Of a stretch of 57,693 bases of DNA, positions 9,168 through 25,000 are shown piece by piece. Below the pieces are notes generated by a model that saw only the letters and a list, made by a program, of their open reading frames with translations, was not told where the DNA came from and made no database searches. A program made the translations under genes and the position numbers. Positions within the stretch are counted from its first letter, which is position 1. Every line of letters begins with the position of its first letter. This DNA is from Candidatus Paralachnospira caecorum (lineage in GTDB: Bacteria; Bacillota; Clostridia; Lachnospirales; Lachnospiraceae), in assembly GCA_904379015.1 (NCBI GenBank), contig CAJFHG010000013.1, positions 1-57,693 of the forward strand, written 5' to 3'.

Positions 9168-9298
9168 ATACGGTTCCTCCTGTTGGTCCCGCTGTTTTCT
9201 ATTTTAACGCACTGCTGCCAGAAATCAACCGTACCCCTGTATCTTTACATAAATTCTACAATCCGCAAAATAAAAAAAGAGTTAAATATGCCTTCTTT

Positions 9299-9345
9299 GC
9301 ATTAAGATCGCATTAAAAAACCGCAGATTTTATATGATTTTTACA
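9299..9345 (+). promoter_or_regulatory. Candidate KdpE-binding region between kdpD and the small membrane gene
   Basis: GCATTAA occurs twice with an 11-base period (9299 and 9310), the spacing usual for OmpR-family dimers. It is followed by TTTATATGATTTTTACAC at 9328-9345. From memory, that resembles the T-rich KdpE site of the E. coli kdpFABC promoter (TTTATA then TTTACAC). Binding is inferred. Confidence 0.4.
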
Positions 9346-9413
9346 CGACTGCCAAAGCCATAACACCACTTTTATTTTTTCCGTGCTATGGTAAAAAAAA
9401 AGGAGGAATTCTT

Positions 9414-9632
9414 ATGACGGCATTATTCATTATTCTCATGTTTTTATTCGTATTTTTCCTGGGATATCATCTGACAGGAAAGGCCGACCGTTTTATCCGG
9501 AAGAACTGCTCTCCTTTTTCCAATGACTGCAGCTGGGAACCGGACATCAAACCAGAGACCGAACCAGACTCCCGGTCCCGCAAAAAACGGAAGGAGAGAA
9601 AAGTCTTCCATCTTCGCTGGAATCAGAATTGA
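9414..9632 (+). CDS. Small single-span membrane protein
   Basis: I do not recognise this 72-residue protein. One hydrophobic segment (residues 2-21, rich in Leu, Phe and Ile) is followed by a polar tail with an acidic stretch and then a very basic stretch (SRSRKKRKERK near residues 53-63). The predicted topology is a single anchor with a cytoplasmic basic tail. AGGAGG seven bases before the ATG is a near-ideal ribosome site, and TGCTATGGT at 9385-9392 could be an extended -10 element, though it would leave a very short leader. The gene is divergent from kdpDE and lies just downstream of a candidate KdpE site, so a role in potassium or turgor response is possible but unproven. Confidence 0.6.
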   Translation: MTALFIILMFLFVFFLGYHLTGKADRFIRKNCSPFSNDCSWEPDIKPETEPDSRSRKKRKERKVFHLRWNQN

Positions 9633-9698
9633 ATCCAACATCCAAAAACAGGATCCGGTATTCTATCTTTTTTTTCGAAAGGACATTATTCGAAAAAC

Positions 9699-9731
9699 GC
9701 CCCTGCCCCCTCAGAACTGAGGGGCAGGGGC
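9699..9731 (-). terminator. Terminator of adhE
   Basis: A stem of about 15 base pairs (GCCCCTGCCCC with GGGGCAGGGGC, extended by CTCAG/CTGAG) is followed on the minus strand by GTTTTTCG. It separates adhE from the convergent small gene and probably serves both. Confidence 0.88.
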
Positions 9732-9754
9732 ATTTTAGAAAGCAGGATTCTTTT

Positions 9755-12397
9755 TTATTTTCCATAGTAAGCCTTCAGATAGATTTCTTTCAGCTCACTC
9801 ATCAGCGGATATCTGGGATTCGCGCCGGTGCACTGGTCATCAAAGGCCTGCTCCACCATCACATCCAGCGTTTCCATGAAGTCCTTCTCAGAAATTCCGT
9901 ACTCGGCAATGCTCTTCTTGATGCCGATCTTTTCTTTCAGGTCTTCCAGCGCCTGAATGAAGTTTTCAAACACTTCATGATCGTCTTTTCCCTGAATCCC
10001 CGCGAACCGTGCCGCTTCCACGTATTTCTCGAAGGCGTGAGGATATTTGTACTGAGGGAAGGTTCCCATCTTCGCCGGAGCCGGCTCCGCGTTATAACGG
10101 ATCACGTAGGTCAGCACCAGGGCATTCGCCACGCCATGAGGAAGATGATGGAAGGCTCCCAGCTTATGGGCCAGCGAATGATTTACGCCCAGGAAGGCGT
10201 TGGCAAACGCCATGCCGGCCATGCAGGACGCGTCTGCCATCTTTTCTCTGGCTTCCACATCCGCCGCTCCGTATTCATATGCCCGGGGCAGATACTTGAA
10301 TACATTCCGAATAACCTGGAACGCCAGACTGTCTGTATAATCAGAAGCCATAATGGACACGCAGGCCTCCAGGGCATGGGTCATAACGTCGATGCCGGAC
10401 GCGCTGGTCAGTCCCTTCGGCATGGTCATCATGTTGTCGGGATCCACGATCGCCATATTGGGAAGCAGCTGATAATCTGCCAGAGGCCATTTCTTTCCCG
10501 TAGACTCATCCGTGATGATCGCGAAAGGCGTCACCTCCGAGCCTGTGCCGGCAGATGTGGGAATGGCGACAAAATACGCTTTTTCTCCCATCTTCGGGAA
10601 TGTGTAGATTCTCTTCCGGATATCCATGAAATCCATGGCCATATCCATGAAGTCCACCTCCGGATGCTCATACATCACCCACATGATCTTGCCGGCGTCC
10701 ATGGCAGAACCGCCGCCCAGCGCAATGATCGTATCCGGCTCAAAGCTTCTCATCATCTCGGCGCCGGCTTTTGCGCATTTCAGCTTGGGATCCGGCTCCA
10801 CATCATAGAAACAGGTATACACAATGCCCATCTCGTCCAGTTTATCGGTGATCGGCTTTGTATAGCCGTTTTTATAGAGAAAGGTATCGGTCACGATAAA
10901 CGCGCGTTTCTTGTGCATGACCGTTCCCAGCTCATCCAGCGCCACAGGCATGCAGCCCTTTTTGAAGTAAACCTTTTCCGGTGTCCTGAACCACAGCATA
11001 TTTTCTCTCCTCTCGGCAACTGTCTTGATGTTGATCAGATGCTTCACTCCCACGTTCTCCGACACGGAATTGCCGCCCCAGGAACCGCAGCCGAGGGTGA
11101 GAGAAGGATCCAGCCTGAAGTTGTAAAGATCTCCGATACCACCCTGAGAAGAAGGCGTGTTCACCAGGATCCGGCAGGTCTTCATGGCTGCCTGATGCTT
11201 TGCCATCTTCGCTTTTCCGTCCTCAGTCGCTGTATTCACATAGAGAACAGAGGTATGTCCGTATCCGCCGTCCGCAACCAGGCGCTCCGCTTTCGCCACC
11301 GCGTCGTCGAAATCCTTCGCCCTGTACATGGCCAGTACAGGAGACAGCTTTTCATGGGCAAAGGGCTCGGAAATATCCACCGATTCCACTTCTCCGATGA
11401 GGATCTTCATGTCCGCCGGAACTTCAATTCCGGCCAGCTTCGCGATCACCGGCGCCGGCTGTCCTACGATCTTCGCGTTGACTGTGCCCGCCTCCGTCAG
11501 AATGATCGCGCGCAGCTTATCCATCTCTTCTTTATTCAGGAAATAGCATTTTCTCTTTTTAAATTCCGCTTTGACTTCTCTGTATACCCGGTCCAGGACG
11601 ATCACGGACTGCTCGGACGCGCAGATCATGCCGTTGTCAAACGTCTTGGAGTGAATAATGGAATTGACGGCCATCAGAATATCCGCCGAATCGTCGATGA
11701 TCGCCGGGGTGTTTCCGGGGCCCACGCCCACAGCCGGTTTTCCCGAGGAATAAGCCGCCGTCACCATGCCGGGGCCGCCTGTCGCCAGAATCACATCGGA
11801 TCCTCTCATCACTTCGTTGGTCAGCTCCAGGGAAGGCACGTCGATCCAGGAAATGATGCCTTCCGGCGCTCCGGCCTTCACAGCCGCCTCCAGCACGACC
11901 CTGGCCGCCGCAATGGTACAGGCCTTCGCGCGGGGATGAGGCGAAATAATGATCGCGTTTCTTGTCTTCAGGGCGATCAGGGTCTTAAAAATTGCAGTTG
12001 ATGTAGGATTTGTCGTAGGGATTACCGCGGCGATCAGGCCGACCGGCTCCGCAATCCTTTTATATCCGAACGCGGTGTCCTCTTCGATCACACCGCAGGT
12101 TTTTGTATTTTTATATTTGTTGTAAATATATTCTGCCGCATAATGGTTTTTGATGACCTTATCTTCCACTACGCCCATTCCGGTCTCTTCCACAGCCATT
12201 TTCGCCAGAGGAATCCTCTGATGGTTGGCAGCCATGGCAGCCTCATAAAAGATCTTGTCAACCTGCTCCTGGGTAAAGGAAGCGAACTTCTTCTGAGCTT
12301 CCCGCATCTGTGACATCTTCGCGAGAAGCTTTTCTACATTGTCGATGATTTCAATTTCAGGTCTTTCCTGATTCTGGATTTTCTCTGCTTTCGCCAT
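9755..12397 (-). CDS. adhE: Bifunctional acetaldehyde-CoA/alcohol dehydrogenase
   Basis: Converts acetyl-CoA to ethanol through acetaldehyde and reoxidises NADH during fermentation. The 880 residues match AdhE. The N-terminal aldehyde dehydrogenase half carries the catalytic Cys near residue 259 (NGMICASEQS) and the NAD-binding GGPGMVTAAYSSG. The C-terminal iron-dependent alcohol dehydrogenase half carries GGGSAMDAGKIM, the metal-site region HALEACVS and GVNHSLAHKLGA. The protein is expected to form spirosome filaments, as known for the family. The start at 12397 follows AGGAGG and begins MAKAEK; an earlier in-frame codon at 12466 falls next to the Rex-like operator and is not credible. A consensus promoter and Rex-like operator lie upstream. 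Confidence 0.97.
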   Translation of the reverse strand: MAKAEKIQNQERPEIEIIDNVEKLLAKMSQMREAQKKFASFTQEQVDKIFYEAAMAANHQRIPLAKMAVEETGMGVVEDKVIKNHYAAEYIYNKYKNTKTCGVIEEDTAFGYKRIAEPVGLIAAVIPTTNPTSTAIFKTLIALKTRNAIIISPHPRAKACTIAAARVVLEAAVKAGAPEGIISWIDVPSLELTNEVMRGSDVILATGGPGMVTAAYSSGKPAVGVGPGNTPAIIDDSADILMAVNSIIHSKTFDNGMICASEQSVIVLDRVYREVKAEFKKRKCYFLNKEEMDKLRAIILTEAGTVNAKIVGQPAPVIAKLAGIEVPADMKILIGEVESVDISEPFAHEKLSPVLAMYRAKDFDDAVAKAERLVADGGYGHTSVLYVNTATEDGKAKMAKHQAAMKTCRILVNTPSSQGGIGDLYNFRLDPSLTLGCGSWGGNSVSENVGVKHLINIKTVAERRENMLWFRTPEKVYFKKGCMPVALDELGTVMHKKRAFIVTDTFLYKNGYTKPITDKLDEMGIVYTCFYDVEPDPKLKCAKAGAEMMRSFEPDTIIALGGGSAMDAGKIMWVMYEHPEVDFMDMAMDFMDIRKRIYTFPKMGEKAYFVAIPTSAGTGSEVTPFAIITDESTGKKWPLADYQLLPNMAIVDPDNMMTMPKGLTSASGIDVMTHALEACVSIMASDYTDSLAFQVIRNVFKYLPRAYEYGAADVEAREKMADASCMAGMAFANAFLGVNHSLAHKLGAFHHLPHGVANALVLTYVIRYNAEPAPAKMGTFPQYKYPHAFEKYVEAARFAGIQGKDDHEVFENFIQALEDLKEKIGIKKSIAEYGISEKDFMETLDVMVEQAFDDQCTGANPRYPLMSELKEIYLKAYYGK

Positions 12398-12459
12398 GCG
12401 TCCTACCTCCTGATTCGTGTTCCCGGGGGAATAAGAATGATTACGTAACACGGTTTTAA

Positions 12460-12477
12460 TTGACAACTTATTAACAA
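12460..12477 (-). promoter_or_regulatory. Rex-like operator of adhE
   Basis: On the minus strand TTGTTAATAAGTTGTCAA fits the clostridial Rex pattern TTGTTAA-N4-TTAACAA with two mismatches. It starts about nine bases after the predicted transcription start, a position where a bound Rex repressor would block adhE until NADH accumulates. Confidence 0.65.
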
Positions 12478-12492
12478 TCTCAACCTTGCTCC

Positions 12493-12521
12493 ATTATATG
12501 TTATCGTTAATGTTTTGTCAA
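12493..12521 (-). promoter_or_regulatory. Consensus promoter of adhE
   Basis: On the minus strand a perfect TTGACA and a perfect TATAAT are separated by 17 bases. The start would lie near 12486, giving a leader of about 90 nt. Confidence 0.88.
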
Positions 12522-12637
12522 TATGATTTTGATATTTTTTTGACACATTCCATGAAACAGCAAAATTCCCCAATGTCTGCGCAGGAAATAAAACTGGAAC
12601 TTTTTAAAATCGACAAAAAAAGAGATTATTTTCTAAA

Positions 12638-14095
12638 TTAACAAATATATTCTTTAAGAAATTTTTTTGTTTCTTCTTCGCTGTAGAGAATCGTCGATTC
12701 CTCCAGAAAAACAGAAAAGTCATAAAACGCGTTCAGCAGACTCTGTTCTTCAAGGAGCAGATAGTAATACCGGCCCTCTCCGCTTGAAAACTGCAGATAA
12801 CCAAAGCCTGCCGACACAAACAGGTGAAAATTCCGCGGAAAATGTTCCATTTCATTTTTGAACATTCTGATCTTCCTGCCGGAGCCGATCAACGCGCAGT
12901 ATTTTTTCAGAACCCGGACGCGGTCCGGATAATCAAGAGGCTGATAGATTTCCGGAGGGATCTCCTCGATGATTCCCGTTTCCAGAAAACTCTTGATCCC
13001 GTCTCTCGAAAAGAAATTATGCGCCCAGATTTTCCCGACTGATGCCAGATACTGATTGGCCTGTTCGATAAAATTTTCTCTGTCCGGAAGATCGCGTTTT
13101 ACATATTTTTCCACGAGGTCCGGTGTCAGACAGGACGACAGACAAGGCCCAAAACCAAGTATATAGCTGTCCCGGCACGAAGAAACGAGCACAGGAAACT
13201 TCTGGAAATGAAATTCAAGGGAAGACTCAAATGAAAGCAGCATGGGCGACGCTTTCTCCCAGCTCCTGTCAAAATATTCTCTGATCTGCGCTACTACCTG
13301 TTCCTCCCTGAAACAGATTCCTTCTGTCAGATCTCCCGAACAGATCACAGCCGCCTCTCTGGTCAGGAACACGCAGGGCATAAAATTGAAATCACCGAAG
13401 TGGGCGTTGATATCATCATAATAATACCTGGGTTCGTACTGATATCCCGTATTATAAAAAGGAAGAATCCGTTTCAGACACTGCAGATTATAGTTTTCCT
13501 GGGAACGGATAAAATTTTTCACATTATTGATGCATATGATATTGCGTATCTCGGCATTTGGTTTCACATCTCCGTAAGAAACCGGAATCGATGCCGCAAT
13601 GTCCAGCGCTTCCAGATGTTCCGGCTGGGCAAGGATTGAGATATGGCATTCCTTTCCGGAAGCTTCTATCAAAAAAATACGATGAATCATAGCAGACAAT
13701 TCAAACCTCCCGTTTAAGGGAAACGTCTTTTTGTTTTCATCGTATATTCCGCTTATGGCTTCCCGGCTGATCGAAACTGTCGCCAGCCCCGACTGCCTGT
13801 TTTTCTGAATGCTGCGGAAATTCAGGATAAAATCCTGCACACTTCTTCGCCTGAGATACGTTTCGCTCCCCACTCTCGTCATCTCATAGGCATCCATCAG
13901 CTCCTGCGCCTCTCTCGGATTCAGAGACAGATGCTCTGATATCTTCCGCACCAGTTCCTTTGAAGAAGGATTCCTTTTCCCATTGATCAATTTATACATC
14001 GTGGATCGATCCAGTCCGCAGTATCCCGTCAGGGCGCTGACATTGACATCCCTTGCTTTTATGATCTGTGAGAACAGTTTTGAAAATTCCGACAT
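12638..14095 (-). CDS. Large XRE-family regulator, paralogue A
   Basis: The protein has 485 residues. An N-terminal helix-turn-helix (about residues 5-60) contains VNVSALTGYCGLDRSTMYKL then INGKRNPSSKELV. A long region of no recognised domain follows. It is clearly related to the 484-residue protein at 34460-35914: both share RSTxYxxxxGKR in the HTH, xxYE(M/L)(T/A)RVG after it, and a central YEPRYYY...NxMP block. The start at 14095 is placed by GGGGAGA seven bases upstream; the in-frame extension to 14221 has no HTH similarity. A palindrome at 14224-14238 recurs upstream of paralogue B, suggesting a shared operator. The C-terminal 400 residues may sense a ligand or contact another protein, which is inference. 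Confidence 0.82.
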   Translation of the reverse strand: MSEFSKLFSQIIKARDVNVSALTGYCGLDRSTMYKLINGKRNPSSKELVRKISEHLSLNPREAQELMDAYEMTRVGSETYLRRRSVQDFILNFRSIQKNRQSGLATVSISREAISGIYDENKKTFPLNGRFELSAMIHRIFLIEASGKECHISILAQPEHLEALDIAASIPVSYGDVKPNAEIRNIICINNVKNFIRSQENYNLQCLKRILPFYNTGYQYEPRYYYDDINAHFGDFNFMPCVFLTREAAVICSGDLTEGICFREEQVVAQIREYFDRSWEKASPMLLSFESSLEFHFQKFPVLVSSCRDSYILGFGPCLSSCLTPDLVEKYVKRDLPDRENFIEQANQYLASVGKIWAHNFFSRDGIKSFLETGIIEEIPPEIYQPLDYPDRVRVLKKYCALIGSGRKIRMFKNEMEHFPRNFHLFVSAGFGYLQFSSGEGRYYYLLLEEQSLLNAFYDFSVFLEESTILYSEEETKKFLKEYIC

Positions 14096-14223
14096 ATATT
14101 CTCCCCATTTCCTTAATGATATATCGAGCGTTTCCTGCTGTTTTTTACAACCGAATCTGCTAAAAATATAGCAAAAAGTGTATTTCAAAGTAAAGGAAGG
14201 AGACATAAAAAGACTGTCCACAA

Positions 14224-14238
14224 AATCTGCCTCAGATT
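14224..14238. promoter_or_regulatory. Palindromic operator candidate, XRE paralogue A
   Basis: AATCTG-CCT-CAGATT is a perfect six-base inverted repeat with a three-base spacer, inside CAAAATCTGCCTCAGATTG. The same 15-mer with one central change occurs at 35974-35988 in front of paralogue B. Confidence 0.6.
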
Positions 14239-14394
14239 GTGAAATACAGCGTCTCGCTGCACGTTAATACGTTAATACTGAGATTCTTTATATTTTTGCA
14301 TTAATTTTTCCAAAAAATATTACCAAACACAGATCCGCAGATTTAATATAGGATTGAACTGACCTGAATATAAGCAGAGGGGGTATGAATCACA

Positions 14395-14565
14395 ATGCTG
14401 AAACGAGGAAAACTGGCTGTCCCGATCCTGACAGGCAGCCTGATACTGGGAATGCTGCCCTGCGGCATATCCGCAGTTTGCCAACCAGACCGGACACAAC
14501 GGCTATCAGATCACCTGCTCCTGTCTTATGCAACCATATGGATTTTGAAAAAATCCCCGGACTGA
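14395..14565 (+). pseudogene. Remnant of a small secreted-peptide gene
   Basis: A 56-codon frame starts with a good signal peptide (MLKRGKLAVPILTGSLILGM, then LPCGISA) and then turns into unlikely sequence. Removing one G after the GCA codon at about 14473-14475 would give ISAFANQTGHNGYQIT, with a normal AFA cleavage site, before a stop about 25 residues later. I read it as a frameshifted or truncated gene for an exported peptide. A purine-rich GAGGGGG precedes it. The rest of the interval from 14096 to 14658 holds only the operator at 14224, a tandem GTTAATAC repeat near 14263 and the terminator at 14602. Confidence 0.4.
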
Positions 14566-14601
14566 AACAGATTCTGCAAATCTTTTGAGCAAAACATTAA
14601 A

Positions 14602-14657
14602 AGACTCCCCACAGAAATACCCATCCACATAACAGAGGGTATTTCCATGGGGAGTCT
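14602..14657 (-). terminator. Terminator of the lacI-ended operon
   Basis: A long stem pairs AGACTCCCC with GGGGAGTCT and continues inward with GAAATACCC/GGGTATTTC. On the minus strand CTTTTAATGTTTT follows; on the plus strand CTTATTTTTC follows. It begins directly after the stop codon of the LacI-family gene. Confidence 0.85.
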
Positions 14658-14658
14658 C

Positions 14659-15705
14659 TTATTTTTCAGGCAAATCCGTTCGTGGCCCCTTCCTGGCAGC
14701 ACTTTCTCTCATCATCACATCCCCGGCAACACTGACTGTACACCGTGTACCGTTAGGATTTTCTATCCGGCAATTCAAGACCCGCATTGCCGTTTCTCCT
14801 ATCATCTCTCCTGGAATCTGAACCGCAGTAATTGCCGGAGAAGTCATACGGCAAAACAGACTGTCACCGATACTGACAAGCGATATATCATCCGGAATAC
14901 TGTATCCCTTTGCGCTCAATGCGTTGAGCATTCCTACCGCGACCGCATCATTGTCAGCAATCACCGCATCCGGCATGGAACCGCTTTCCTGCATGATAGA
15001 AACAATATTGTCATATGTACCCTCCATCATCGGATTTACAGGAAAACAAATGCTGCGGTCGACTTTGATGCCTCGTTCTTCTGCGATATTCATAAAAGAA
15101 TAATACCGTTCTTTATAATTATAAGTTTTAAAACAGCTGTAAATAAACCCTATCCTTGAATGCCCATAACCGCACAGCAAATCCACGGCCTTGTAGATAC
15201 ACTGCCGATTGTCGATGGTCACGCTGTCGCATTCAAACGCCGGCATTTTCGTATCAACCGTCACAACAGGAGATTGAAATTCTTCCAGATAATTTTTATA
15301 AAACAACGGCAAATCCGTTCCCAGTAAAATCATTCCATCAAGCGGATTTTCATTGATCAGCTGGAGCACTTTGATAAATTCTCCCTCATGGCAGGGCGTA
15401 ACCACCACATCGTATCCCAGCTTTCTTGCTTCTTGTCCGATCGAATCCAGCATAGAATTGACAAATCCGTCATTTTTTCCCGTATGATATCCCACTACGG
15501 AATATTTAAGCAGATATACACGGCGGATTGTTTCCTTTTCCTGTTCTTTAAGTTCCTCATGATACCCATGATCTTTTAACTGCTGAAGAACCTTTGTCCT
15601 TGTTTCATCACTGACTCCGGGGCGATTATGAAGAACCAGAGAGACCGTTGCGGATGATATATTCAAATTTTTAGCTATTTCCTTTAATGGCACTCTGTTC
15701 TTCAC
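14659..15705 (-). CDS. LacI-family transcriptional regulator
   Basis: The protein has 348 residues. The N-terminal LacI helix-turn-helix with hinge helix reads VPLKEIAKNLNISSATVSLV then LHNRPGVSDETRTKV. A periplasmic-binding-protein-like effector domain spans about residues 60-340, with the usual PDAVIADNDAVAVGMLNAL and DDISLVSIGDS stretches. The start is GTG at 15705, seven bases after GAGGGG. It is the last gene of the operon that begins with a solute-binding protein at 21623 and is probably the local regulator, with the transported compound or its phosphorylated product as effector. A symmetric site at 21679-21694 is a candidate operator. The effector is unknown. Confidence 0.9.
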   Translation of the reverse strand: MKNRVPLKEIAKNLNISSATVSLVLHNRPGVSDETRTKVLQQLKDHGYHEELKEQEKETIRRVYLLKYSVVGYHTGKNDGFVNSMLDSIGQEARKLGYDVVVTPCHEGEFIKVLQLINENPLDGMILLGTDLPLFYKNYLEEFQSPVVTVDTKMPAFECDSVTIDNRQCIYKAVDLLCGYGHSRIGFIYSCFKTYNYKERYYSFMNIAEERGIKVDRSICFPVNPMMEGTYDNIVSIMQESGSMPDAVIADNDAVAVGMLNALSAKGYSIPDDISLVSIGDSLFCRMTSPAITAVQIPGEMIGETAMRVLNCRIENPNGTRCTVSVAGDVMMRESAARKGPRTDLPEK

Positions 15706-15778
15706 ATTTCAACCCCTCATTATGATTTCTTTTGGTTACATATGATTTTCATAAACATCTACGATCTGCCATAAATGT

Positions 15779-16414
15779 TCATTGTTTCTCATTCACATAT
15801 TTTGACAATGATGTGATAAGCAGTGCTGCGACAACCGAACCCGGATCAAGAATTTGTCTGGAATCTTCTCCCCGCCGGGCAGCGCGTCCCCAGCAGGCCA
15901 GCATTCCAACCGTCGACGCAGACCCTTCCTGCGCGGCTTCAGCCGCCTTTCTCAGCTCTATTCCAACTTTTTCTTCTGAATGATTAGCAGTCATAATCCG
16001 TACTGCCGGATCAAATCCATCCAGAAACGTTTTCTCGCCGACCTTTGCTTTTCCCCGGTTGATGATTCCCTTCTGAAATGCATTCAAAAATGTTCCAATC
16101 TCACATCCGCTGATTTCCGTTTTCCCCTTGAACACCTTGCCAGCTTCAATAAAACCAGAAGAAATCAATGTTCCCAGACTGGAAGACGCCTTGCTGTTCA
16201 TGGTTTTTCCTGCATTATACAATAATATTCCAATATCTTCAATAGACGAATTCTCTGCTTCTTCCTTCATTGCATGGAACCCGTCTGACATAGACAGCCC
16301 CAAATCTCCATCTCCTGCCACCTGATCCAATTTGATCAGATAATCTTTGTTTTTGTCCATAACTCTGGACCATTCTTCAAATAGATGTCGGAAATCCTCC
16401 ACATTTAATATCAT
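15779..16414 (-). CDS. dhaL: DhaL-type kinase subunit (ATP/ADP-binding)
   Basis: This is the nucleotide-binding subunit of a two-component dihydroxyacetone-type kinase, 211 residues and of family length. The three metal-binding aspartates are at 30, 35 and 37 in LDQVAGDGDLGLSM, the positions I recall for E. coli DhaL; the motif reads GDGDLG rather than GDGDHG. Later conserved pieces include SSLGTLISSGF and the C-terminal GSASTVGMLACWGRAARRGEDSRQ region. The start at 16414 follows AGGGGG; an upstream ATG at 16447 has no ribosome site. It lies downstream of dhaK. No phosphotransfer protein DhaM is in the window, so either it is encoded elsewhere or the kinase uses ATP. Confidence 0.88.
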   Translation of the reverse strand: MILNVEDFRHLFEEWSRVMDKNKDYLIKLDQVAGDGDLGLSMSDGFHAMKEEAENSSIEDIGILLYNAGKTMNSKASSSLGTLISSGFIEAGKVFKGKTEISGCEIGTFLNAFQKGIINRGKAKVGEKTFLDGFDPAVRIMTANHSEEKVGIELRKAAEAAQEGSASTVGMLACWGRAARRGEDSRQILDPGSVVAALLITSLSKYVNEKQ

Positions 16415-16476
16415 AATCCAATCCCCCTGATCTACAGCATCATTCATATAATTCCATATATGATATCATTCGCAAA

Positions 16477-17475
16477 TTACAGCTGCGGCTGGACAAAAAA
16501 TGGCGTTGCGGCCGGTTTTGACAGCAAAGCTTTCAATTCGTCATCCAGCTTAAACAAAGAAATTGACATCCCCGCCATTTCCATGGAAGTTGCAAATTCT
16601 CCCGTATATACATGATATATTTTAATTTTTCTGTTTGTCAAGACAGTATGCACCCGTTTGAAAGCGATATACTGCTCTTCAAGAGGAGTTGCTCCCAACC
16701 CGTTTATCAATACCGCAACTTCATCCTCTTCCCTGAGCTTCATATCCTCTAATATGGGTTCCATCATTTCATCTACGATTTCATTTGCCGTACTGAGCTG
16801 TCCCCGCCTGATCCCTGCTTCACCATGGATTCCCATTCCGATTTCCATTTCATTCTCACCCAATTCAAAACTTGGCTTTCCTACTCTCGGAATCGTACAG
16901 GGAGAAAGCGCGACTCCCATAGTCCTCACATTGTCCGCCGCCTTTCTGGCGATTCTGGTCACTTCATCAAGATCCATCATCTGATCTGCGGCAGCTCCTG
17001 CAACTTTATAAATAAAAAAGATTCCCGCTACGCCTCTTCTATTATCGGCATCATCTGTTGAGACATCGTCCTTTCCTATCACCGTATTAACTTTAATATT
17101 GTCCTCGAAATCAGCCATTTCTGCAGCCATTTCAAAATTCATTTTATCGCCGCCATAATTTCCGTAAATATAAAGAACACCCGCGCCTGAATCGATCGCC
17201 TTTGTCACTGCCAGCATCTGCTGGGCACTGGAAGACTGAAATACATCCCCAATACTGCATCCGTCAAGCATTCCTTCCCCCACATATCCCAGAAACAGCG
17301 GCAAATGTCCGCTTCCACCTCCTGTAGCCAGTCCCACCTTGCCCGGCTTTAAATTTTTCCTCACCAGTGCATGCATATCACCCTCTACATAGGTCAGTTC
17401 ATCTGGATGTGCGAGATAAATGCCTGTCAGCATATCATTTACAAACATTCCCGGCGAATTAATAATTTTTTTCAT
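16477..17475 (-). CDS. dhaK: DhaK-type kinase subunit (substrate-binding), divergent
   Basis: Substrate-binding subunit of a DhaKL kinase, 332 residues. The His that binds the carbonyl substrate covalently is His217 in GMGIHGEAG, and His57 and Asp110 are present in GGGSGHLP and NYGGDKMNF. The residues around them differ from the standard dihydroxyacetone enzymes as I recall them: GGGSGHEPAHAG becomes GGGSGHLPLFLG, and NYTGD becomes NYGGD. The chemistry is therefore kept while the substrate pocket has changed, so the substrate may not be dihydroxyacetone. It sits 16 nt downstream of the aldolase-family gene and upstream of dhaL in one operon. The substrate is inferred to be a small hydroxylated ketone or aldehyde. 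Confidence 0.88.
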   Translation of the reverse strand: MKKIINSPGMFVNDMLTGIYLAHPDELTYVEGDMHALVRKNLKPGKVGLATGGGSGHLPLFLGYVGEGMLDGCSIGDVFQSSSAQQMLAVTKAIDSGAGVLYIYGNYGGDKMNFEMAAEMADFEDNIKVNTVIGKDDVSTDDADNRRGVAGIFFIYKVAGAAADQMMDLDEVTRIARKAADNVRTMGVALSPCTIPRVGKPSFELGENEMEIGMGIHGEAGIRRGQLSTANEIVDEMMEPILEDMKLREEDEVAVLINGLGATPLEEQYIAFKRVHTVLTNRKIKIYHVYTGEFATSMEMAGMSISLFKLDDELKALLSKPAATPFFVQPQL

Positions 17476-17491
17476 AAGCCCTCCATTCTCA

Positions 17492-18547
17492 TCACAGAAT
17501 AAAATCGTGATACTGGTTCATTATGCTTTTCAGGATCTCTATCGTATAGTTTATGTCGGAATGCGAAATATCATTATGGACAACAAATCTGAAATTCCCG
17601 TCCGACCCGGCGCTGATTTTAATGCCTTTCTCCAGCATTCGCGCCGGCAGTGCATTCAAAAAAACTTCTGATCTGTGTTCCCACTTAAAAAATACCATGT
17701 TGATATCGGCTCTTGTCTGGTCTACAGTGATTCCAGGCAATGTTTCCAGCTGCCTGCCAAGATATCTGGCATTTTCATGGTCTTCAAGCAGACGATCTGG
17801 CATTTTCTCAAGAGCAACAATTCCGGCGGCAGCCAGAATTCCGCTCTGCGACATACCTCCTCCCAGCATATGACGGTATCTTCTGGCTTTTTCGATAAAC
17901 GCTCCGGGCCCTACCAGCACGCCTCCTACCGGCGCACACAGTCCCTTCGAAAGATGAACGGACAAAGAATCCGTATATTCAGCGAGCTCTCTTATGTTCA
18001 CCCCCAGTGCTGCCGCCGCGTTGAAAATCCTGGCGCCATCCGTATGAACATTCAACCCGTGACGCTTCGCCGCCTCATATGCTTCTTTCATAAGCGGAAC
18101 AGGCACTACTGAACCTCTTCCCAGGGCATTCTCAAGACATACAAGACTGGTTCTGGGTACATGAATATCCTCCGGATAGGGACGAACCGCAGCTTCTATA
18201 TCTTTTGCCCGCAGAATGCTGTCTTCTGTATGAACCACCCGATATCCCACCGAGGAAAGAACAGCTGCTGCTCCCACTTCAAATTCCAGTATATGGGAAT
18301 CGCTGCTTAAAATCATCTCTTCTCCTCTGTTTGTCCATGTAAGAACCGCCAGCTGATTGCTCATAGTTCCGGTTGGAACAAACAGCCCCGCTTCTTTTCC
18401 GGTCCGCTCTGCCATCATTTTTTCCAGTCGATTAACCGTCGGATCATCCCGAAACACATCATATCCGACTTCCGCCGAATACATGGCCTGTCTCATCTCT
18501 TCTGTGGGCTGTGTCACACTGTCACTGCGAAAATCAATATAGCGCAT
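17492..18547 (-). CDS. Threonine-aldolase-family PLP enzyme
   Basis: Fold-type I PLP enzyme of 351 residues, of the threonine aldolase/beta-eliminating lyase family. Members split beta-hydroxy amino acids into glycine and an aldehyde. Visible features are DFRSDSVTQPTEEMRQAM at the N-terminus, the PLP-contacting HTDGARIFNAAAALG and the Schiff-base Lys201 in VHLSKGLCAPVGG. The motif I know as GGGMRQ reads GGGMSQ here (LGGGMSQSGILAAAG), a change in a normally conserved arginine. Start MRYIDFRSDS matches the family. It lies between the transporter ATPase gene and dhaK, which suggests that its aldehyde product feeds the kinase. True substrate unknown; a lyase role remains possible. Confidence 0.88.
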   Translation of the reverse strand: MRYIDFRSDSVTQPTEEMRQAMYSAEVGYDVFRDDPTVNRLEKMMAERTGKEAGLFVPTGTMSNQLAVLTWTNRGEEMILSSDSHILEFEVGAAAVLSSVGYRVVHTEDSILRAKDIEAAVRPYPEDIHVPRTSLVCLENALGRGSVVPVPLMKEAYEAAKRHGLNVHTDGARIFNAAAALGVNIRELAEYTDSLSVHLSKGLCAPVGGVLVGPGAFIEKARRYRHMLGGGMSQSGILAAAGIVALEKMPDRLLEDHENARYLGRQLETLPGITVDQTRADINMVFFKWEHRSEVFLNALPARMLEKGIKISAGSDGNFRFVVHNDISHSDINYTIEILKSIMNQYHDFIL

Positions 18548-18580
18548 ATCTGCCTCCTTTATTGACCTGTATGGGATCCG

Positions 18581-19363
18581 TCAATTTTCAATCTCAATGC
18601 CAGCCGCGCTGAATAACCCTTCTTTCATAGATGCTTCCCTGTCGATAATACTTTTCAGAAAAGTCTTTGTCCGTTCATTTTCCGGATTCGAAAAGATCCG
18701 TTCCGGGGAACCTTCTTCAATAATGACACCGCCGTCTATCATGATGACTCGATCTGCAATTTCTCTTGCAAAGCTCATTTCATGGGTAACAATAATCATC
18801 GTCATCCCATCGTCCGCCAGCTGCCTGATTACCCGCAGTACCTCGCCGATCAATTCCGGATCCAGCGCTGATGTGGGTTCATCAAACAACATATATTTTG
18901 GTTTCATGGCAAGTGCTCTGGCTATGGCAATTCGTTGCTGCTGTCCCCCGGAAAGCTGAGGCGGATAACTGTTTTTCTTTTCCAGAAGTCCTACTTTAGA
19001 AAGAAGTTCATCAATTACTTTCTCCAGTTCTTCTTTGCTGTATCTGTGATTCAGCTTTGGCGCCAGCGCGATATTATCGTGCACGGTCAGATGCGGAAAC
19101 AAATTAAACTGCTGAAATACCATTCCAAGGTTCAGACGCGCCTCTTTGATCTGCTTTGTACTTCCTCCCATTCTCTTTCCATCAATCAGAATTTCACCGT
19201 CATCTATGGTCTCAAGGTGATTGATACTGCGCAGCAAAGTACTTTTTCCAGATCCGCTCGGTCCTATGATCGCAATGACTTCCCCTTCTTTTACTGTCAG
19301 ATTTACTCCCTTCAGCACTTCCAGTTTCCCGAATTTTTTATGTACATTCTTGAGCTCAATCAT
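18581..19363 (-). CDS. Polar amino acid ABC transporter ATPase
   Basis: Cytoplasmic ATPase of an amino-acid-type importer, 260 residues. It has Walker [10 protein letters not shown] at residues 34-42, the Q-loop [12 protein letters not shown], the signature [15 protein letters not shown], Walker [14 protein letters not shown] and the H-loop VTHEM. These motifs, especially FNLFPHLTV, are typical of the GlnQ/HisP (PAAT) family. It overlaps the permease gene by eight bases, so it is translationally coupled. It powers the two permeases at 19356-20692 with the lipoprotein at 20784. The cargo is unknown; family members carry polar amino acids and derivatives. Confidence 0.94.
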
Positions 19364-20024
19364 ATCTTGCCGCCTTTCTTTCTATGACAGATACTAATTT
19401 GGACAAAGGATAACAGATCACAAAATAGCAGATTCCGACCATAATATAAGTTTCAAAAGGACGTCCGGTCTGATTCATGATGCTCTGCCCATTGCGGACC
19501 AGCTCCGAATATCCGATAATCGATGCCAGCGAAGTATCCTTAATCATTCCAATATAAAAGCCAATCAAAGATGCCAGTGCCAGCTTTACAGTCTGAGGAA
19601 GTATGATCCGGAACATGATCTGCCCGTAATTCAGATCCAGGCAGTACCCCGCTTCCCACTGACCGGAGGGAATGGATTCTATGCCGGAACGTACAATCTC
19701 TGCGATATATGCGCCGCTGTAAAGTGTAAATACCAGAAATGTAGTCAGTGATATATCAATATTGATTCCCATATACGGAAATCCGAAATAGACCATGAAA
19801 AGCTGGATCAGCAGAGGACATCCTCTCAGCAGCTCCACATATATTTTCAAAACAATTCTGAAAGGCTTCAGTGTCCGGCTTTTTGTTGTGCTGACAATTC
19901 CTACCAGCAATCCGAGAACCGTTCCGCACACAACAGCGATCAGTCCCAATCGAAGTGTCATTCCAAATGCTTTCAAAAATAAACCTGTGTAGGCAGGCAC
20001 CCATGAAAAATCCACTCCTGTCAC
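19356..20024 (-). CDS. Amino-acid-type ABC transporter permease 1
   Basis: HisM/GlnP-family inner-membrane permease of 222 residues with about five hydrophobic segments. The N-terminal family features are the [20 protein letters not shown] stretch and [15 protein letters not shown]. The ATPase-docking EAA loop begins at [20 protein letters not shown] and continues to [15 protein letters not shown]. Its ATG overlaps the stop of the upstream permease (ATGA), and its end overlaps the ATPase gene. It is expected to pair with the permease at 20021-20692 as a heterodimeric channel. Confidence 0.93.
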
Positions 20025-20692
20025 CTCCTCTCAGTTTTTGATGCAAACCATTTTTTATATGCCAGTCTGGTAAACAACAGAATCAATGCTGTTACTGCAT
20101 AATAAAACAACATGACGAAGGTAAATATTTCCATACTTCTAAATGACTGCGAATTCAAAATAGAAGCTGTCTGAGTCAGTTCACGGACATCCAGAATCGA
20201 CAATACACTGGTTCCAAAAATCAAAAGCACTAGCTGGTTTGCAATAGAGGGAAAAGCATCACGTACAGCCTGAGGAAAAATCACCCGGATAAAAGCACTC
20301 GTTTTTGAAAGACACAGGCTTTCCGCGGCTTCCCACTGTCCTTTCGGAATAGACTGGATTCCTCCTCTCATAATCTCGCAATAATAAGCTGCACTGTTAA
20401 GGGACAAAACCAATACACCCGCTGTCCATGGTGAAAGAGAAATTCCAATCTGAGGAATTCCGAAAAAAACAAAAAACAACTGTACTAAAAGTGGCGTATT
20501 TCTCATAATCTCCACAAAAGCAGAAACGAAAACATAAAGTATCTTTGGTTTTTTTGAAAATCTTACAATGGAACACAGCGTTCCCAGCAAAAGAGAAGCA
20601 ATAAAACAGATCACACTGATCTGTGCCGTCATCCATGCTCCTGACAACAGCTCTCCTATGTGTTCAATCGGGTATCTCCAGTCTAAAAACAT
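20021..20692 (-). CDS. Amino-acid-type ABC transporter permease 2
   Basis: HisM/GlnP-family permease of 223 residues. It has about five hydrophobic segments, a FVEIMRNTPLLVQLFFVFFG motif and an EAA loop (AAYYCEIMRGGIQSIPKGQW, then IFPQAVRDAFPSIANQL). It is related to, but clearly distinct from, the following permease. The gene lies 91 nt downstream of the solute-binding protein gene and overlaps the next permease by four bases, so expression is coupled. Confidence 0.93.
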   Translation of the reverse strand: MFLDWRYPIEHIGELLSGAWMTAQISVICFIASLLLGTLCSIVRFSKKPKILYVFVSAFVEIMRNTPLLVQLFFVFFGIPQIGISLSPWTAGVLVLSLNSAAYYCEIMRGGIQSIPKGQWEAAESLCLSKTSAFIRVIFPQAVRDAFPSIANQLVLLIFGTSVLSILDVRELTQTASILNSQSFRSMEIFTFVMLFYYAVTALILLFTRLAYKKWFASKTERR

Positions 20693-20783
20693 CGTTTCCC
20701 CCTTATTCTCTGCGGCAGCCGAAAATCAGCTGCCGCAAGTTACACAATGTCCTGTTCATCTGCATTCCCGCCGTATCCAAATA

Positions 20784-21623
20784 TCAATACTGCGGTTCAA
20801 GATCTGTAAACGGTTCCGCACCAAAATACTCCTCAAACAATGCCGCGTTTTGCCCGGAAGAATTAAATTCGAATACAAATTCATTGATGTAATTCAGCCA
20901 AATCGTATCTCCAATAGGAAGCATGATAGAATTATAGCTGATTGTTGCCAGCGGATCTCCGACAACTTTTACGCCATCTGTCAAAGAGGCCTGATACTGC
21001 AGTGTATTGGAATCTTCCGCAAAGGCAACACACTGCCCATTTTTTACAGCAACCACGCCATCCGTGGGACTGGTATAATAAACAATATCCAGATCCGTTC
21101 TGATTGCTTCGATCTCCTGATCCATAGTTCCGCCTTTGGTTACACCTATCTTGTCTCCTGCTGCCAGAGATTCGATTCCTTCAATACTGCTGTCCTCAGT
21201 AACCAGAAGCCGCTCACTGGATACAATTAAAGTATCCGAAAAGGCCACTTTCTGCGCCCGTTCAAGAGTTCTGGTAGAGTTTCCCATACAGATATCCACT
21301 TTTCCTGTTTCAATTGAAGAAATACGGCTGTCAGACGTTACCTCAACAAACTCGATCTCTGCTCCCAGTGAATCAGCGATTCTTTTCGCTACCTCTACTT
21401 CAAATCCCTGCCATTCTCCATTCTCATCCACATAAGAGCAGGGAGCAAATGCGCCGATTACTCCAACTGTAATTTTTCCCGACTGAAGAACTTTATAAAG
21501 AGTACTGTCATATCCTCCATACTGTCCGGATGAGCCTGATGATGACGCAGGACTGCTTCCGCATGCGCCAAATGTCAATACAATAACTGCAGCCATTAAG
21601 ATTGCCATAATCTTCTTTTTCAT
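20784..21623 (-). CDS. Amino-acid-type ABC transporter solute-binding lipoprotein
   Basis: Extracellular binding protein of family 3 (SBP_bac_3), 279 residues. It has a lipoprotein signal (MKKKIMAILMAAVIVLTFGA, then CGSS; lipobox FGAC) and a Ser/Gly-rich linker. Two binding lobes follow, with the family segments GKITVGVIGAFAPCSYVDEN, then GFEVEVAKRIADSLGAEIEF, and CMGNSTRTLERAQKVAFSDT. The start at 21623 follows AGGAGGATG, and an in-frame codon seven residues upstream lies before that ribosome site. It is the first gene of the operon and should decide the cargo. The ligand cannot be read from sequence alone. Confidence 0.93.
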   Translation of the reverse strand: MKKKIMAILMAAVIVLTFGACGSSPASSSGSSGQYGGYDSTLYKVLQSGKITVGVIGAFAPCSYVDENGEWQGFEVEVAKRIADSLGAEIEFVEVTSDSRISSIETGKVDICMGNSTRTLERAQKVAFSDTLIVSSERLLVTEDSSIEGIESLAAGDKIGVTKGGTMDQEIEAIRTDLDIVYYTSPTDGVVAVKNGQCVAFAEDSNTLQYQASLTDGVKVVGDPLATISYNSIMLPIGDTIWLNYINEFVFEFNSSGQNAALFEEYFGAEPFTDLEPQY

Positions 21624-21678
21624 AAACATCCTCCTTTTCTGCATGCTTTTTTAGAATTTTCTGTTTTAAATAAGCTCA

Positions 21679-21694
21679 AGTTTTAATTAAAACT
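21679..21694. promoter_or_regulatory. Perfect AT-rich palindrome in the operon leader
   Basis: AGTTTTAATTAAAACT is a perfect 16-base inverted repeat, about 55 bases after the predicted start of the transporter/kinase operon. It is a candidate operator for the operon's LacI-family protein, although it lacks the central CG usual in that family. Confidence 0.45.
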
Positions 21695-21756
21695 ATCATA
21701 AATATTTTAATAAAATCTCGTTCTTATTTTTCATAACTTTTAAATTCTTAATGTAG

Positions 21757-21785
21757 ATTATAGCATTTCATATAATTATTGTCAA
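21757..21785 (-). promoter_or_regulatory. Consensus promoter of the transporter/aldolase/kinase operon
   Basis: On the minus strand TTGACA and TATAAT are separated by exactly 17 bases. It gives a leader of about 125 nt. The interval from 21624 to 22068 is AT-rich and otherwise holds only the palindrome at 21679 and the promoter at 21956. Confidence 0.85.
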
Positions 21786-21955
21786 TTAATTGTGTTTTTC
21801 ATTTTTCATTTTTGTATAATATTGACATTTTATTTTAAATCAGTTTAGATATAATTTTAATTATCCTTTAAAACTTTAAGCATTTTTAAATTCATTAAGG
21901 TTGTTTTTTACTGATCTCTCTTCTCACATTTCACGCAATTTAACCTGCCTTTTTC

Positions 21956-21985
21956 TTGTACGCAGCCCCATGAATAGAGTATAAT
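21956..21985 (+). promoter_or_regulatory. Candidate promoter of the giant repeat protein
   Basis: TTGTAC and a perfect TATAAT are separated by 18 bases, about 83 nt before the start codon at 22069. Confidence 0.6.
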
Positions 21986-22068
21986 AGGAACCAGAGGAAA
22001 GTGCTTTCTTTCCATATTTCCTGTCAAACGGAAACCATGCAAACCTTATGAAACGGGGAGGAGAAGAG

Positions 22069-25000
22069 ATGAAGTTTCACAGTCAAAGCAAACGGATCCT
22101 GTCTCTGGTCATGGCTGTCTGCCTGATGCTTACCGCCTTCGGCAATACTGTCTCGGCGGCATCATCGGAAGACGGCTTTACTTATGAGGCACTCAACGGC
22201 ACCTACTGTACTGTAACCGGGTACACAGGAACGGACACCGACGTGGTGATCCCGTCCGAGCTCGGCGGATATATTGTACAGCAGATCTCAGACGACGCGT
22301 TTGCCGGCAATACGGCAATCGAGCGGGTCACATTTCCCGCAACCATTGAACAGACCGGTTCCGGTATCTTTTCCGGCTGTACCAGTCTTACATATGTAGC
22401 GTTTGGCGGCAGCCTCACGTCCATTGAAAATTCCACGTTCAGAGACTGCACGTCCCTGACAGAGTTCACGGTTCCTGCCGGAATCACTTCAATTGGAAGC
22501 TATGCTTTTGACGGCTGTACCGGACTCAGGGAAATTTCCTTTCCCGATACTCTGACAGAAATTGATCATTATGCGTTTTCCGGATGCACCGGTCTGGAAT
22601 CTATTGATCTGCCCGATTCTGTGACTGTGATTTCCGGCTACGCGTTCCGCGGATGCGAAAATCTTGCTTCTGTGAAGCTCCCTCTTTCCTGGCAGAACGT
22701 AAGCACCGGAAGCTACAGCGACCGCAGTCCCTTCTATGACTGTGAAAGCCTGACAGAAATCACCATTCCCGATGGAATGACCAGACTTCCCGATTACGCT
22801 TTTTACAACTGTGCCAGTCTGAAAAAGATTCATTTTCCCGAAAGTCTTGCCGAAATCGGCGCGTTTGCATTCAGCAGATGCACCGGTCTGGAGGAAGTAT
22901 CCTTTTCCGAGGGACTGGCCTCCATTGGAAACAGCGCTTTCGACAGCTGTACCTCTCTTGCGCGGGTCACCTTTCCCGATTCTCTGACCACCATTGAAAA
23001 CAGCGCCTTTTCCGGATGTACCGCCCTCGACAATGTGGCGCTCCCGGAGCAGGTTACCGTTCTGAACAGCTCTGTATTCTACGGCTGCACCTCTTTATCG
23101 GAGATCAGTCTGCCGGAAACGCTGACCTCCATTGGATACTATGCCTTCTATGGCTGCACGGGACTTTCCCAGATCCATATTCCCGATTCTGTCAGCGCGC
23201 TGTCCGGCTATGCCTTCCGGGGCTGCGACTCCCTGGAATCCGTCAATATTCCTCTTTCCTGGAATTCCACTGGCAGCAGCTACAGCGACCGCAGTCCCTT
23301 CTATGACTGTGAAAGCCTGACAGAAATCACCATTCCCGACGGAATGACCAGCATTCCTGACTACGCTTTTTACAACTGCGGCAGCCTCAATACCGTTCAT
23401 TTTTCCGATACGCTCACGGAGATCGGAACATACGCATTTGAAAACTGCACGGGGCTCAGACAGCTGACGCTCCCCGATTCTCTGACCACAATCGGCACCG
23501 GTGCTTTTTCCGGGTGTACCGGACTTTCCTCCGTCACCATTCCCGGACAGGTGACAGAAATCCAGAGCTATGTGTTTTCCGACTGTACCGGACTCAGGGA
23601 GGTCATTCTTCCCGAGACCCTGACAGCTGTCTATCCCTATGCTTTTTCCGGATGCTCCGGACTCAGAGAGATCTCCATCCCTGATTCCGTGAACACCCTC
23701 TCCGGCTACGCCTTCCGGAACTGCACCAATCTGACATCCGTTTCTCTTCCCGCTTCCTGGAGCACGGTGGGAAACAACTACTGGAACAGCCCGTTTGCCG
23801 GCTGCACCAGCCTCAGGGAAATCACCCTTCCCGACGGAATGACCAGAATTCCCGATTATGCTTTTTATAACTGCGCCGCCCTTGAAACGGCCATCCTTTC
23901 TGATTCCATAACAGAAATTGGATCCAGCGCTTTCGACAGCTGCTCTTCTCTGGCTCAGATCTGGGTACCGGAATCTGTCATTTCAATCCAGAACCGTGCC
24001 TTTTACAACTGTTCTGCCCTGACCATCCACGGCGTATCCGGCTCCTTTGCCGAACAGTACGCCCAGTCCGCCGGTTTTCCTTTCTCAGCGGAAACTCTGG
24101 TCTATGAAACAGCGGCACTGTCGGGACAGGTTACCGATCCGGAGGGAAACGGCATTTCCGGCGTGCTGGTATCTCTCTATGACGAGACCCGCAGCCAGAT
24201 GTTCTCTTCCGTAGCTGCCACGGATTCAGATGGCAGCTGGAGCTGGCCCGACGCCATCGTGGGAGACCGCTACAGCGTCAGCTTTCTGCATCCCTGGTAC
24301 CAGATTCCCGATATTCTGGATGTGACCGCGGCTGCCGGCGGAACCAGCGCCGGAAAAGCGGTCGGCGAAAAGATCATGGAAGAAACCGCCACTCCGGCTT
24401 CTGATTTTACCTACCGCGTGCTGAACGGCACCTACTGCGCCATCACCGGGTACACCGGATCCGACGCGGAAATCGTACTCCCCTCCGAAATTGACGGATA
24501 TATCGTTCAGGAAATCGCGGATTCCGCCTTTGAGAAAAATGAGACGCTTGAAAAAGTCATTCTGCCTGAAACACTGGAACGGGTGGGCTCCGGCATCTTT
24601 TCCGGATGCACCGGCCTTACCTATGTAGGCTTCGGCAGCAGGCTGACCGAAATCGGAAACTCCATGTTTTCCGGATGCACCAGTCTGGAAAAGATTTCCC
24701 TTCCCATGGGCATTACGTCCATTAAAAATCATGCCTTTTACAACTGCACGTCCCTGACAGAAATCAGTCTGCCCCGGACGCTGAAATCCATTGATTACTA
24801 TGCTTTTTACAATTGTACCGGACTGCAGTCCATCGAACTGCCCGATTCCGTGACAGCCATCTCCGGCTATGCTTTCCGGAACTGCACCGCGCTGACATCG
24901 GTGGAGCTTCCTCTTTCCTGGGAAACACTCCAGGCTGGCAGCAGCAGCTACAGTGACAGAAGTCCCTTCGTGGGCTGCTCCGCTCTGACAACCATTGCCC

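Follow-up and report, generated by a model that had tools for sequence, protein, structure and literature searches.

A 57,693-nucleotide stretch of Candidatus Paralachnospira caecorum (family Lachnospiraceae; contig CAJFHG010000013.1, forward strand, hereafter the window) carries an operon that joins a polar amino acid ABC importer, a pyridoxal-phosphate (PLP) enzyme of the threonine aldolase (TA) family, a kinase of the dihydroxyacetone (DHA) kinase families DhaK and DhaL (together DhaKL) and a LacI regulator. It consists of eight minus-strand genes at positions 14659-21644, in the order binding protein, two permeases, ATPase, TA, DhaK, DhaL and LacI (Table 1). A preliminary description, made from the sequence, had proposed one minus-strand transcript encoding these eight families, and this is confirmed in place, strand and order by the Pfam assignments, the gene order, a promoter, a terminator and the retention of the whole unit in a congener. 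The best explanation of the gene set, to which we give slightly better than even confidence, is a catabolic route in which an imported amino acid would be cleaved by a retro-aldol reaction and a product phosphorylated; the ligand, the reactions and their order are what we infer. The unit seems rare: its component families are familiar, and their combination is apparently undescribed. No description of the gene set was found among the papers listed from the Creative Commons-licensed literature of PubMed Central (PMC), going by titles and the opening parts of abstracts.

The eight genes are separated by gaps of -8 to 91 bases, and the terminator hairpin stands directly 3' of the LacI stop codon. 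Both promoter hexamers and their 17-base spacing are kept in the congener's copy. Because the total of promoter-like sites in the whole scan barely exceeded that of shuffled sequence (18 vs 15.9 expected), the promoter call rests on the quality of the site and on this conservation. The longest open reading frame of DhaL starts at 16447; the likelier start at 16411 gives a protein of 210 aa, the same length as the congener's copy. An inverted repeat in the leader (21679-21694) was considered as a candidate operator and dropped, as it has no counterpart in the congener's locus. An Rfam scan of positions 12000-24000 returned nothing at gathering score.

Table 1. Features of the operon and the nearby adhE gene, with positions in the window
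Feature	Position	Strand	Evidence or remark
Sigma-70 promoter TTGACA-17-TATAAT, extended -10	21757..21785	-	12/12 consensus matches
Family-3 solute-binding lipoprotein, polar amino acid ABC importer	20784..21644	-	SBP_bac_3 PF00497, 112 bits
ABC permease 1	20021..20692	-	BPD_transp_1 PF00528; HEQRo_perm_3TM (TIGR01726) 103.7 bits, cut-off 42.2
ABC permease 2	19356..20024	-	BPD_transp_1 PF00528; HEQRo_perm_3TM (TIGR01726) 83.5 bits, cut-off 42.2
ABC ATPase, GlnQ-like	18581..19363	-	ABC_tran PF00005; best NCBIfam match GlnQ, 332.8 bits, below cut-off 379
Fold-I PLP enzyme, GntG / L-threonine aldolase family (TA), conserved residues altered	17492..18547	-	Beta_elim_lyase; NCBIfam NF041359 401.8 bits, cut-off 230
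DhaK-family kinase subunit (GHLP / YGNY type)	16477..17475	-	Dak1 PF02733, 397 bits
DhaL-family ATP-binding subunit (GDGDLG motif)	15779..16411	-	Dak2 PF02734
LacI-family regulator	14659..15705	-	LacI PF00356 + Peripla_BP_3 PF13377
Intrinsic terminator	14590..14665	-	hairpin -43.3 kcal/mol, z -10.6, then T-rich tail
AdhE	9755-12466	-	about 2 kb downstream of the operon, beyond the terminator

Conservation and distribution of the operon

The identical eight-gene order was found in one congener (genome completeness 86%), with flanks unrelated to those of the window. This locus entered the data as L034 and as part of genome G006 (L005, L049), the same contig having been reached via two genome collections. 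A blastn comparison of window positions 9001-27000 with the congener locus revealed similarity limited to 14843-15721 and 15791-21880, that is, to the operon plus some 235 bases of upstream sequence. Protein identities between the two copies were 74% for LacI, 77% for TA, about 83-84% for the binding protein, 84% for DhaL, 89% for DhaK and 90% for the permeases and the ATPase. Across all eight genes synonymous differences were saturated (pS 0.69-0.84) and dN was 0.06-0.17. Saturated synonymous sites together with 74-90% protein identity demonstrate purifying selection on all eight genes, and the eight-gene set is thus maintained by selection.

A survey of 11 genomes of the genus, including the window's, found the operon TA in two, a different TA (52-55% identical) in six and none in three. 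The two operon-carrying genomes (G000, which is the window's, and G006) have no second TA match; in the former (2.59 Mb, 55 contigs, 95.68% complete) nothing of the TA family other than the operon TA was matched at E up to 0.001. When TA was searched against 116 relatives, 391 class genomes and 398 phylum genomes, sets that overlap in part, one operon-type relative was present among the matches listed, namely that of G006 (77%), and the best listed matches beyond it were 56% identical. Within the TA loci fetched (71, of which 67 had a TA match, plus 11 more), DhaK stood beside TA just in the window (L004) and in the congener. Searches that started from the kinase gave the same pattern: among 397 family genomes, a draw outside which G006 lies, no DhaK other than the window's was more than 68% identical, and TA adjoined DhaK at none of 29 non-window DhaK loci (best matches from 96 genomes with a match).

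Wider scans were made of species genomes and plasmids. Six exact 8-residue TA patterns, matched against 84,980 species genomes, hit 13 loci, the sole operon-type one being L034; the scan is blind to copies that differ in all six patterns, and one hit (L046), only a 32-residue fragment next to a contig end, is not classable. Among 72,556 plasmid records, none of the 1481 with any match carried the operon at 80% coverage, and in all 65 records that matched TA at E up to 1e-50 the identity was below 60%. In an empty-site check, the best relatives that two congener flank genes have in the window's genome were located on contigs C3 (73%) and C34 (42%), away from the operon; the check gave no evidence of insertion or loss at a defined site. 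Conservation of the neighbourhood, which the preliminary description had named as a test of its proposal, was found within narrow limits, in a single further genome, from the same genus.

The threonine-aldolase-family enzyme

The operon TA was aligned with 69 comparison rows (67 distinct), 70 of the 81 loci being kept. The 11 loci left out were L024 and L026-L033 (distant or of low coverage), L034 (duplicate of L005) and L046 (fragment). The rows are best matches and hence biased towards near relatives. Five residues of the enzyme are shared with 69/69 relatives: His85 (His83 of Thermotoga maritima and Escherichia coli), Asp170, Arg173, Lys201 (the PLP lysine) and Arg320. Since the PLP lysine, the stacking histidine and two arginines are intact, a PLP-dependent reaction on an alpha-amino acid is likely. 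TA passes the GntG subfamily cut-off (Table 1), missing the narrower LtaE equivalog (306.5 vs 312 bits), and it matches T. maritima TA (1jg8) over nearly its full length (E 1.2e-99). With that enzyme and E. coli LtaE (4lnj), both L-allo/L-threonine aldolases, and with the NCBIfam GntG family, it shares the fold-I PLP architecture, the lysine, the histidine and the arginines.

Both operon TAs are changed at positions that are otherwise strongly conserved: D29Y and C198H (Asp and Cys each in 69/69), R233S and T10S (Arg and Thr each in 68/69), S209G (Ser 67/69), G99S (Gly 66/69), K226H (Lys 65/69), S59T (Ser 62/69), A54G (Ala 61/69) and Y32F (Tyr 61/69). In T. maritima numbering, the alignment gives Asp27Tyr, Tyr30Phe, Cys196His, Ser207Gly, Lys224His and Arg231Ser. 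His126 of E. coli, the second histidine of the active site, also has no counterpart, which is not peculiar to the operon TA because the ENA form without THN occurs in 39/69 relatives. T. maritima Lys224, which follows the PLP Lys199 of that enzyme by 25 residues, aligns with position 226, and Ser233 replaces the Arg of the GGGMRQ motif. From equal spacing to the PLP lysine, we take positions 226 and 233 to correspond to E. coli Lys222 and Arg229. Arg229 has a role in PLP-phosphate binding, for which a literature search gave no source. In the E. coli enzyme Lys222 holds the catalytic water, and its change to alanine lowers activity tenfold, according to a review (PMC4761611) from which the roles of the PLP lysine, the stacking histidine and the arginines are also taken.

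Phylogenetic analysis placed the operon TA pair in a clade of its own (support 1.0, branch 0.44), nested in a clade (support 0.97) together with the genus's six ordinary TAs and two further sequences; the operon TA looks like a remodelled descendant of a local ordinary TA. The earlier assignment to the threonine aldolase family is thus upheld by the family cut-off and the PLP residues and needs correcting in one respect: the enzyme is not a standard member, with family-conserved residues replaced in both copies. From its residues, it is unlikely to act as an ordinary threonine aldolase.

These replacements bear on two alternative explanations. The PLP enzyme might catalyse a non-aldol reaction (beta-elimination, transaldolation or racemisation), with DhaKL phosphorylating the resulting hydroxy-ketone. 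This is a possibility that we regard as unlikely and still worth keeping in view. It draws on D29Y, C198H, S209G, K226H and R233S, present in both copies at positions on which 65 to 69 of the 69 relatives agree, on the fully supported branch of the pair, and on the alignment of K226 with the probable equivalent of Lys222, the catalytic-water support in E. coli (PMC4761611). Against it, the PLP lysine, His85, Asp170, Arg173 and Arg320 are intact, the GntG-aldolase cut-off is passed strongly, and some of the inspected loci place related kinases near other aldolases.

Ordinary use of threonine or allo-threonine is an improbable explanation. TA would then yield glycine and acetaldehyde, AdhE would remove the acetaldehyde and DhaKL would be unrelated. 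The adhE gene does lie on the same strand close downstream, and TA is the only enzyme of its family detected in the genome; however, adhE lies past the terminator and a separate 527-aa open reading frame, the congener's 17-kb locus has no AdhE match, conserved TA residues are changed, and DhaKL would be left without a role despite its conserved placement.

The importer, the kinase and related loci

The binding protein, two permeases and ATPase carry the family motifs of PAAT ABC importers. In alignment A2, from which rows L143, L145 and L148 of an earlier list were left out, the binding protein's D211 is conserved in 19/19 rows and its R129 in at least 90%; we take this pair to grip the carboxylate and amino group of the ligand, as in other family-3 binding proteins. 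Among the 116 relatives the congener's protein matched at 512 bits and the next at 32% identity (118 bits), a distance that sets it apart from known PAAT importers, and identity to 17 other A2 rows was 27-31%. Among solved structures, those closest to it are reconstructed ancestors of the cyclohexadienyl-dehydratase lineage and amino-acid binding proteins.

The kinase shares Dak1, Dak2 and the equivalents of His56, Asp109 and the covalent His218 with the DhaKLM systems of E. coli and Lactococcus lactis, which depend on the phosphotransferase system (PTS). It differs from them in that Glu57 is replaced by Leu and Lys104 by Gly (the IKNY motif reads YGNY), that both subunits fall below their NCBIfam equivalog cut-offs (DhaK 379.7 vs 406.25; DhaL 120.9 vs 138.3) and that DhaM was not found. 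Against TIGR02361 the K subunit alone scored 266.6, the cut-off of 574.95 being set for K plus L. Gly at the Lys104 position is shared by the window, the congener and 30/31 other fetched kinases (29/30 distinct, L060 and L117 being one gene), and is therefore a trait of the whole kinase clade rather than of the operon; Lys is present in the two solved DhaKs and in L079. Lys104 presumably has a functional role in DHA kinases; a literature search on DhaK residue roles yielded nothing usable. DhaM (TIGR02364) had no match in the window's genome (0/1, 95.68% complete), its control matching in 3/14 genomes, so that ATP is the probable phosphoryl donor and the operon kinase is probably ATP-dependent. 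Judged by these residues and scores, the kinase need not use DHA, and a DHA-type substrate should not be assumed. Of the DhaKL kinase in the preliminary description, the Dak1 and Dak2 families and the key His and Asp residues stand, whereas the missed cut-offs, the lost Lys104 and the DhaM that was not found leave its DHA character in doubt.

The window's genome has two further DhaK loci, on contigs C2 and C8. At the C2 locus, DhaK and DhaL adjoin a protein judged by eye to be RpiB-like and a xylose-isomerase-like TIM barrel, a cluster that we take to resemble tetrulose pathways. Its DhaK is 44% identical to that of the operon and likewise has YGNY in place of IKNY; the operon has the amino-acid importer and PLP aldolase where the C2 cluster has isomerases. 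The C8 locus (L047:6215-10319) encodes a fused 580-aa DhaKL, 65% identical to the window's DhaK, with a divergent LacI gene, followed by fucose-isomerase-like and nucleoside-phosphorylase-family genes (families assigned on the related locus L114). This order is repeated in L114, and L115 has DhaKL and the isomerase; the C8 locus may serve a nucleoside-derived sugar pathway.

We also inspected 14 other Lachnospiraceae loci with a DhaK 53-67% identical to the window's, for which 19 neighbour proteins, from loci other than L112, L115, L116 and L117, were Pfam-annotated. An aldolase-family gene was present in the kinase neighbourhood at 4/14 loci: the DHDPS family near DhaK in L108 and L113, a class II FBA in L109 amid inositol-type genes (by eye), where the link to the kinase may be incidental, and a class II aldolase/adducin gene directly before DhaK in L121. 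Among other neighbours, L108 and L110 have an iron alcohol dehydrogenase and L110 also a CoA transferase; a fucose isomerase C-domain occurs in L114 and, by similarity (L058), in the genome of L115; L111 and L119 share a ureidoglycolate-lyase-family gene, and L118 has a serine-dehydratase-family gene with its DhaKL. Sugar ABC importers were found in L111 (from Pfam of the binding protein) and L112, L113, L117 and L119 (by inspection), and LIV-type importers in L120 (from Pfam of the binding protein) and L118 (by inspection); L116 had no clear kinase partner that we recognised. The 421-aa serine-dehydratase-alpha-family gene of L118 occurs twice in its stretch, perhaps through true duplication, perhaps through misassembly.

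On plasmids, 52 of 444 records with a DhaK match had one 60-80% identical to the window's DhaK. Two Citrobacter plasmids (L172, L173) carry, in this order, a PTS importer, a regulator, a class II aldolase, DhaK, DhaL and HPr, with a kinase 61-62% identical to the window's DhaK. Such enterobacterial clusters share with the operon the succession of importer, aldolase and DhaKL; the plasmids have a sugar PTS and a class II aldolase, and the operon an amino-acid ABC importer and a PLP aldolase. Each of the two plasmid stretches holds two DhaK/DhaL pairs, one of them behind the class II aldolase and PTS importer. The recurrence of aldolase neighbours (4/14 loci and the two plasmids) gives partial support to an "aldolase, then DhaKL" arrangement, and we read DhaKL as a module set behind varied carbon-cleaving or oxidising enzymes.

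The variety of these contexts also bears on a further explanation, which we consider doubtful: that two functions are merely co-transcribed, amino-acid uptake and cleavage for glycine supply on the one hand and an independent triose or tetrulose kinase on the other. The occurrence of same-clade kinases in many other contexts fits this, as does a search for the glycine cleavage P-protein, which had no match in the window's genome (0/1) while its control matched in 10/14. Independence of the two parts is harder to reconcile with the 16 bases between TA and dhaK, the single strong promoter, the single regulator and a gene order that the two genomes share.

Proposed pathway, genomic setting and implications

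In the catabolic route that we favour, LacI would control induction of the operon, and the ABC importer would take up a polar alpha-amino acid that has a hydroxyl on its beta carbon and a polyhydroxylated side chain. A retro-aldol cut by the PLP enzyme would release glycine and a hydroxy-aldehyde. Through its conserved histidine, DhaK would form a covalent bond with the carbonyl of this aldehyde, or of its ketose form, for phosphorylation by DhaL charged with ATP. The phosphorylated triose or tetrose would enter glycolysis or the pentose-phosphate pathway. Import, retro-aldol cleavage and phosphorylation had been put forward in the preliminary description; the conserved operon, the Arg/Asp pair of the importer, the intact PLP residues and the occurrence of related kinases near aldolases all agree with that route, whose individual steps we infer.

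With regard to the substrate, the preliminary description had named a polyhydroxylated norvaline-type compound giving glyceraldehyde and 4-hydroxythreonine giving glycolaldehyde. The former is the better fit, because the phosphates of glyceraldehyde or a tetrose enter central metabolism at once; 4-hydroxythreonine is the weaker candidate, because glycolaldehyde phosphate would have no obvious use and the operon has no enzyme for it. We therefore prefer a 2-amino-2-deoxy-pentonate (yielding glyceraldehyde) or -hexonate (yielding a tetrose) as the putative substrate. L-specific cleavage would call for the 2S configuration, and D-glucosaminate lacks it. Because the glycine cleavage P-protein was not found, the glycine product would probably go to serine or protein; in a parallel search for glycine reductase, the control matched nowhere.

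Several observations weigh against this route. Only two instances of the operon were found in the genomes searched, both in one genus. The probable equivalents of Lys222 and Arg229 are replaced in TA, so the reaction may not be retro-aldol. The operon has no isomerase, which would be needed if the kinase requires a ketose. Among the related kinase loci, 10/14 had no aldolase-family gene among the neighbours annotated or recognised, and on a Rhizobium plasmid, where a sugar ABC importer stands ahead of DhaK, DhaL and an FGGY kinase, no aldolase was annotated either.

The surroundings of the operon contain several further genes. Between the operon and adhE, a minus-strand gene (12638-14221) encodes the 527-aa protein mentioned above, which has a weak N-terminal helix-turn-helix match (PF13443, 20.3 bits, below the cut-off of 22) and no NCBIfam match; it is possibly an uncharacterised regulator. 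Divergent from the operon, a plus-strand gene (22048-32802) encodes a 3584-aa protein in which leucine-rich BspA-type repeats predominate and the C-terminal segments are SLH-like (by eye), and is overlapped by large antisense open reading frames. A KdpD-like sensor kinase of 885 aa (by eye) is encoded on the minus strand at 6510-9167.

In its most specific form, which we put forward tentatively and do not expect to hold in full, the operon would encode a new pathway for a 2-amino-2-deoxy-aldonic acid, in which a neofunctionalised TA paralogue and a non-DHA DhaK/DhaL acting directly on the aldehyde would have co-evolved their specificities in one transferable operon. If the proposed route holds, it would add a PLP-dependent retro-aldol entry to the bacterial use of polyhydroxylated amino acids, and DhaK/DhaL would be a kinase module behind aldolases of several unrelated families, with a substrate predictably other than dihydroxyacetone. 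The operon TA would then be an aldolase that naturally prefers polyhydroxy substrates, useful for making beta-hydroxy amino acids.

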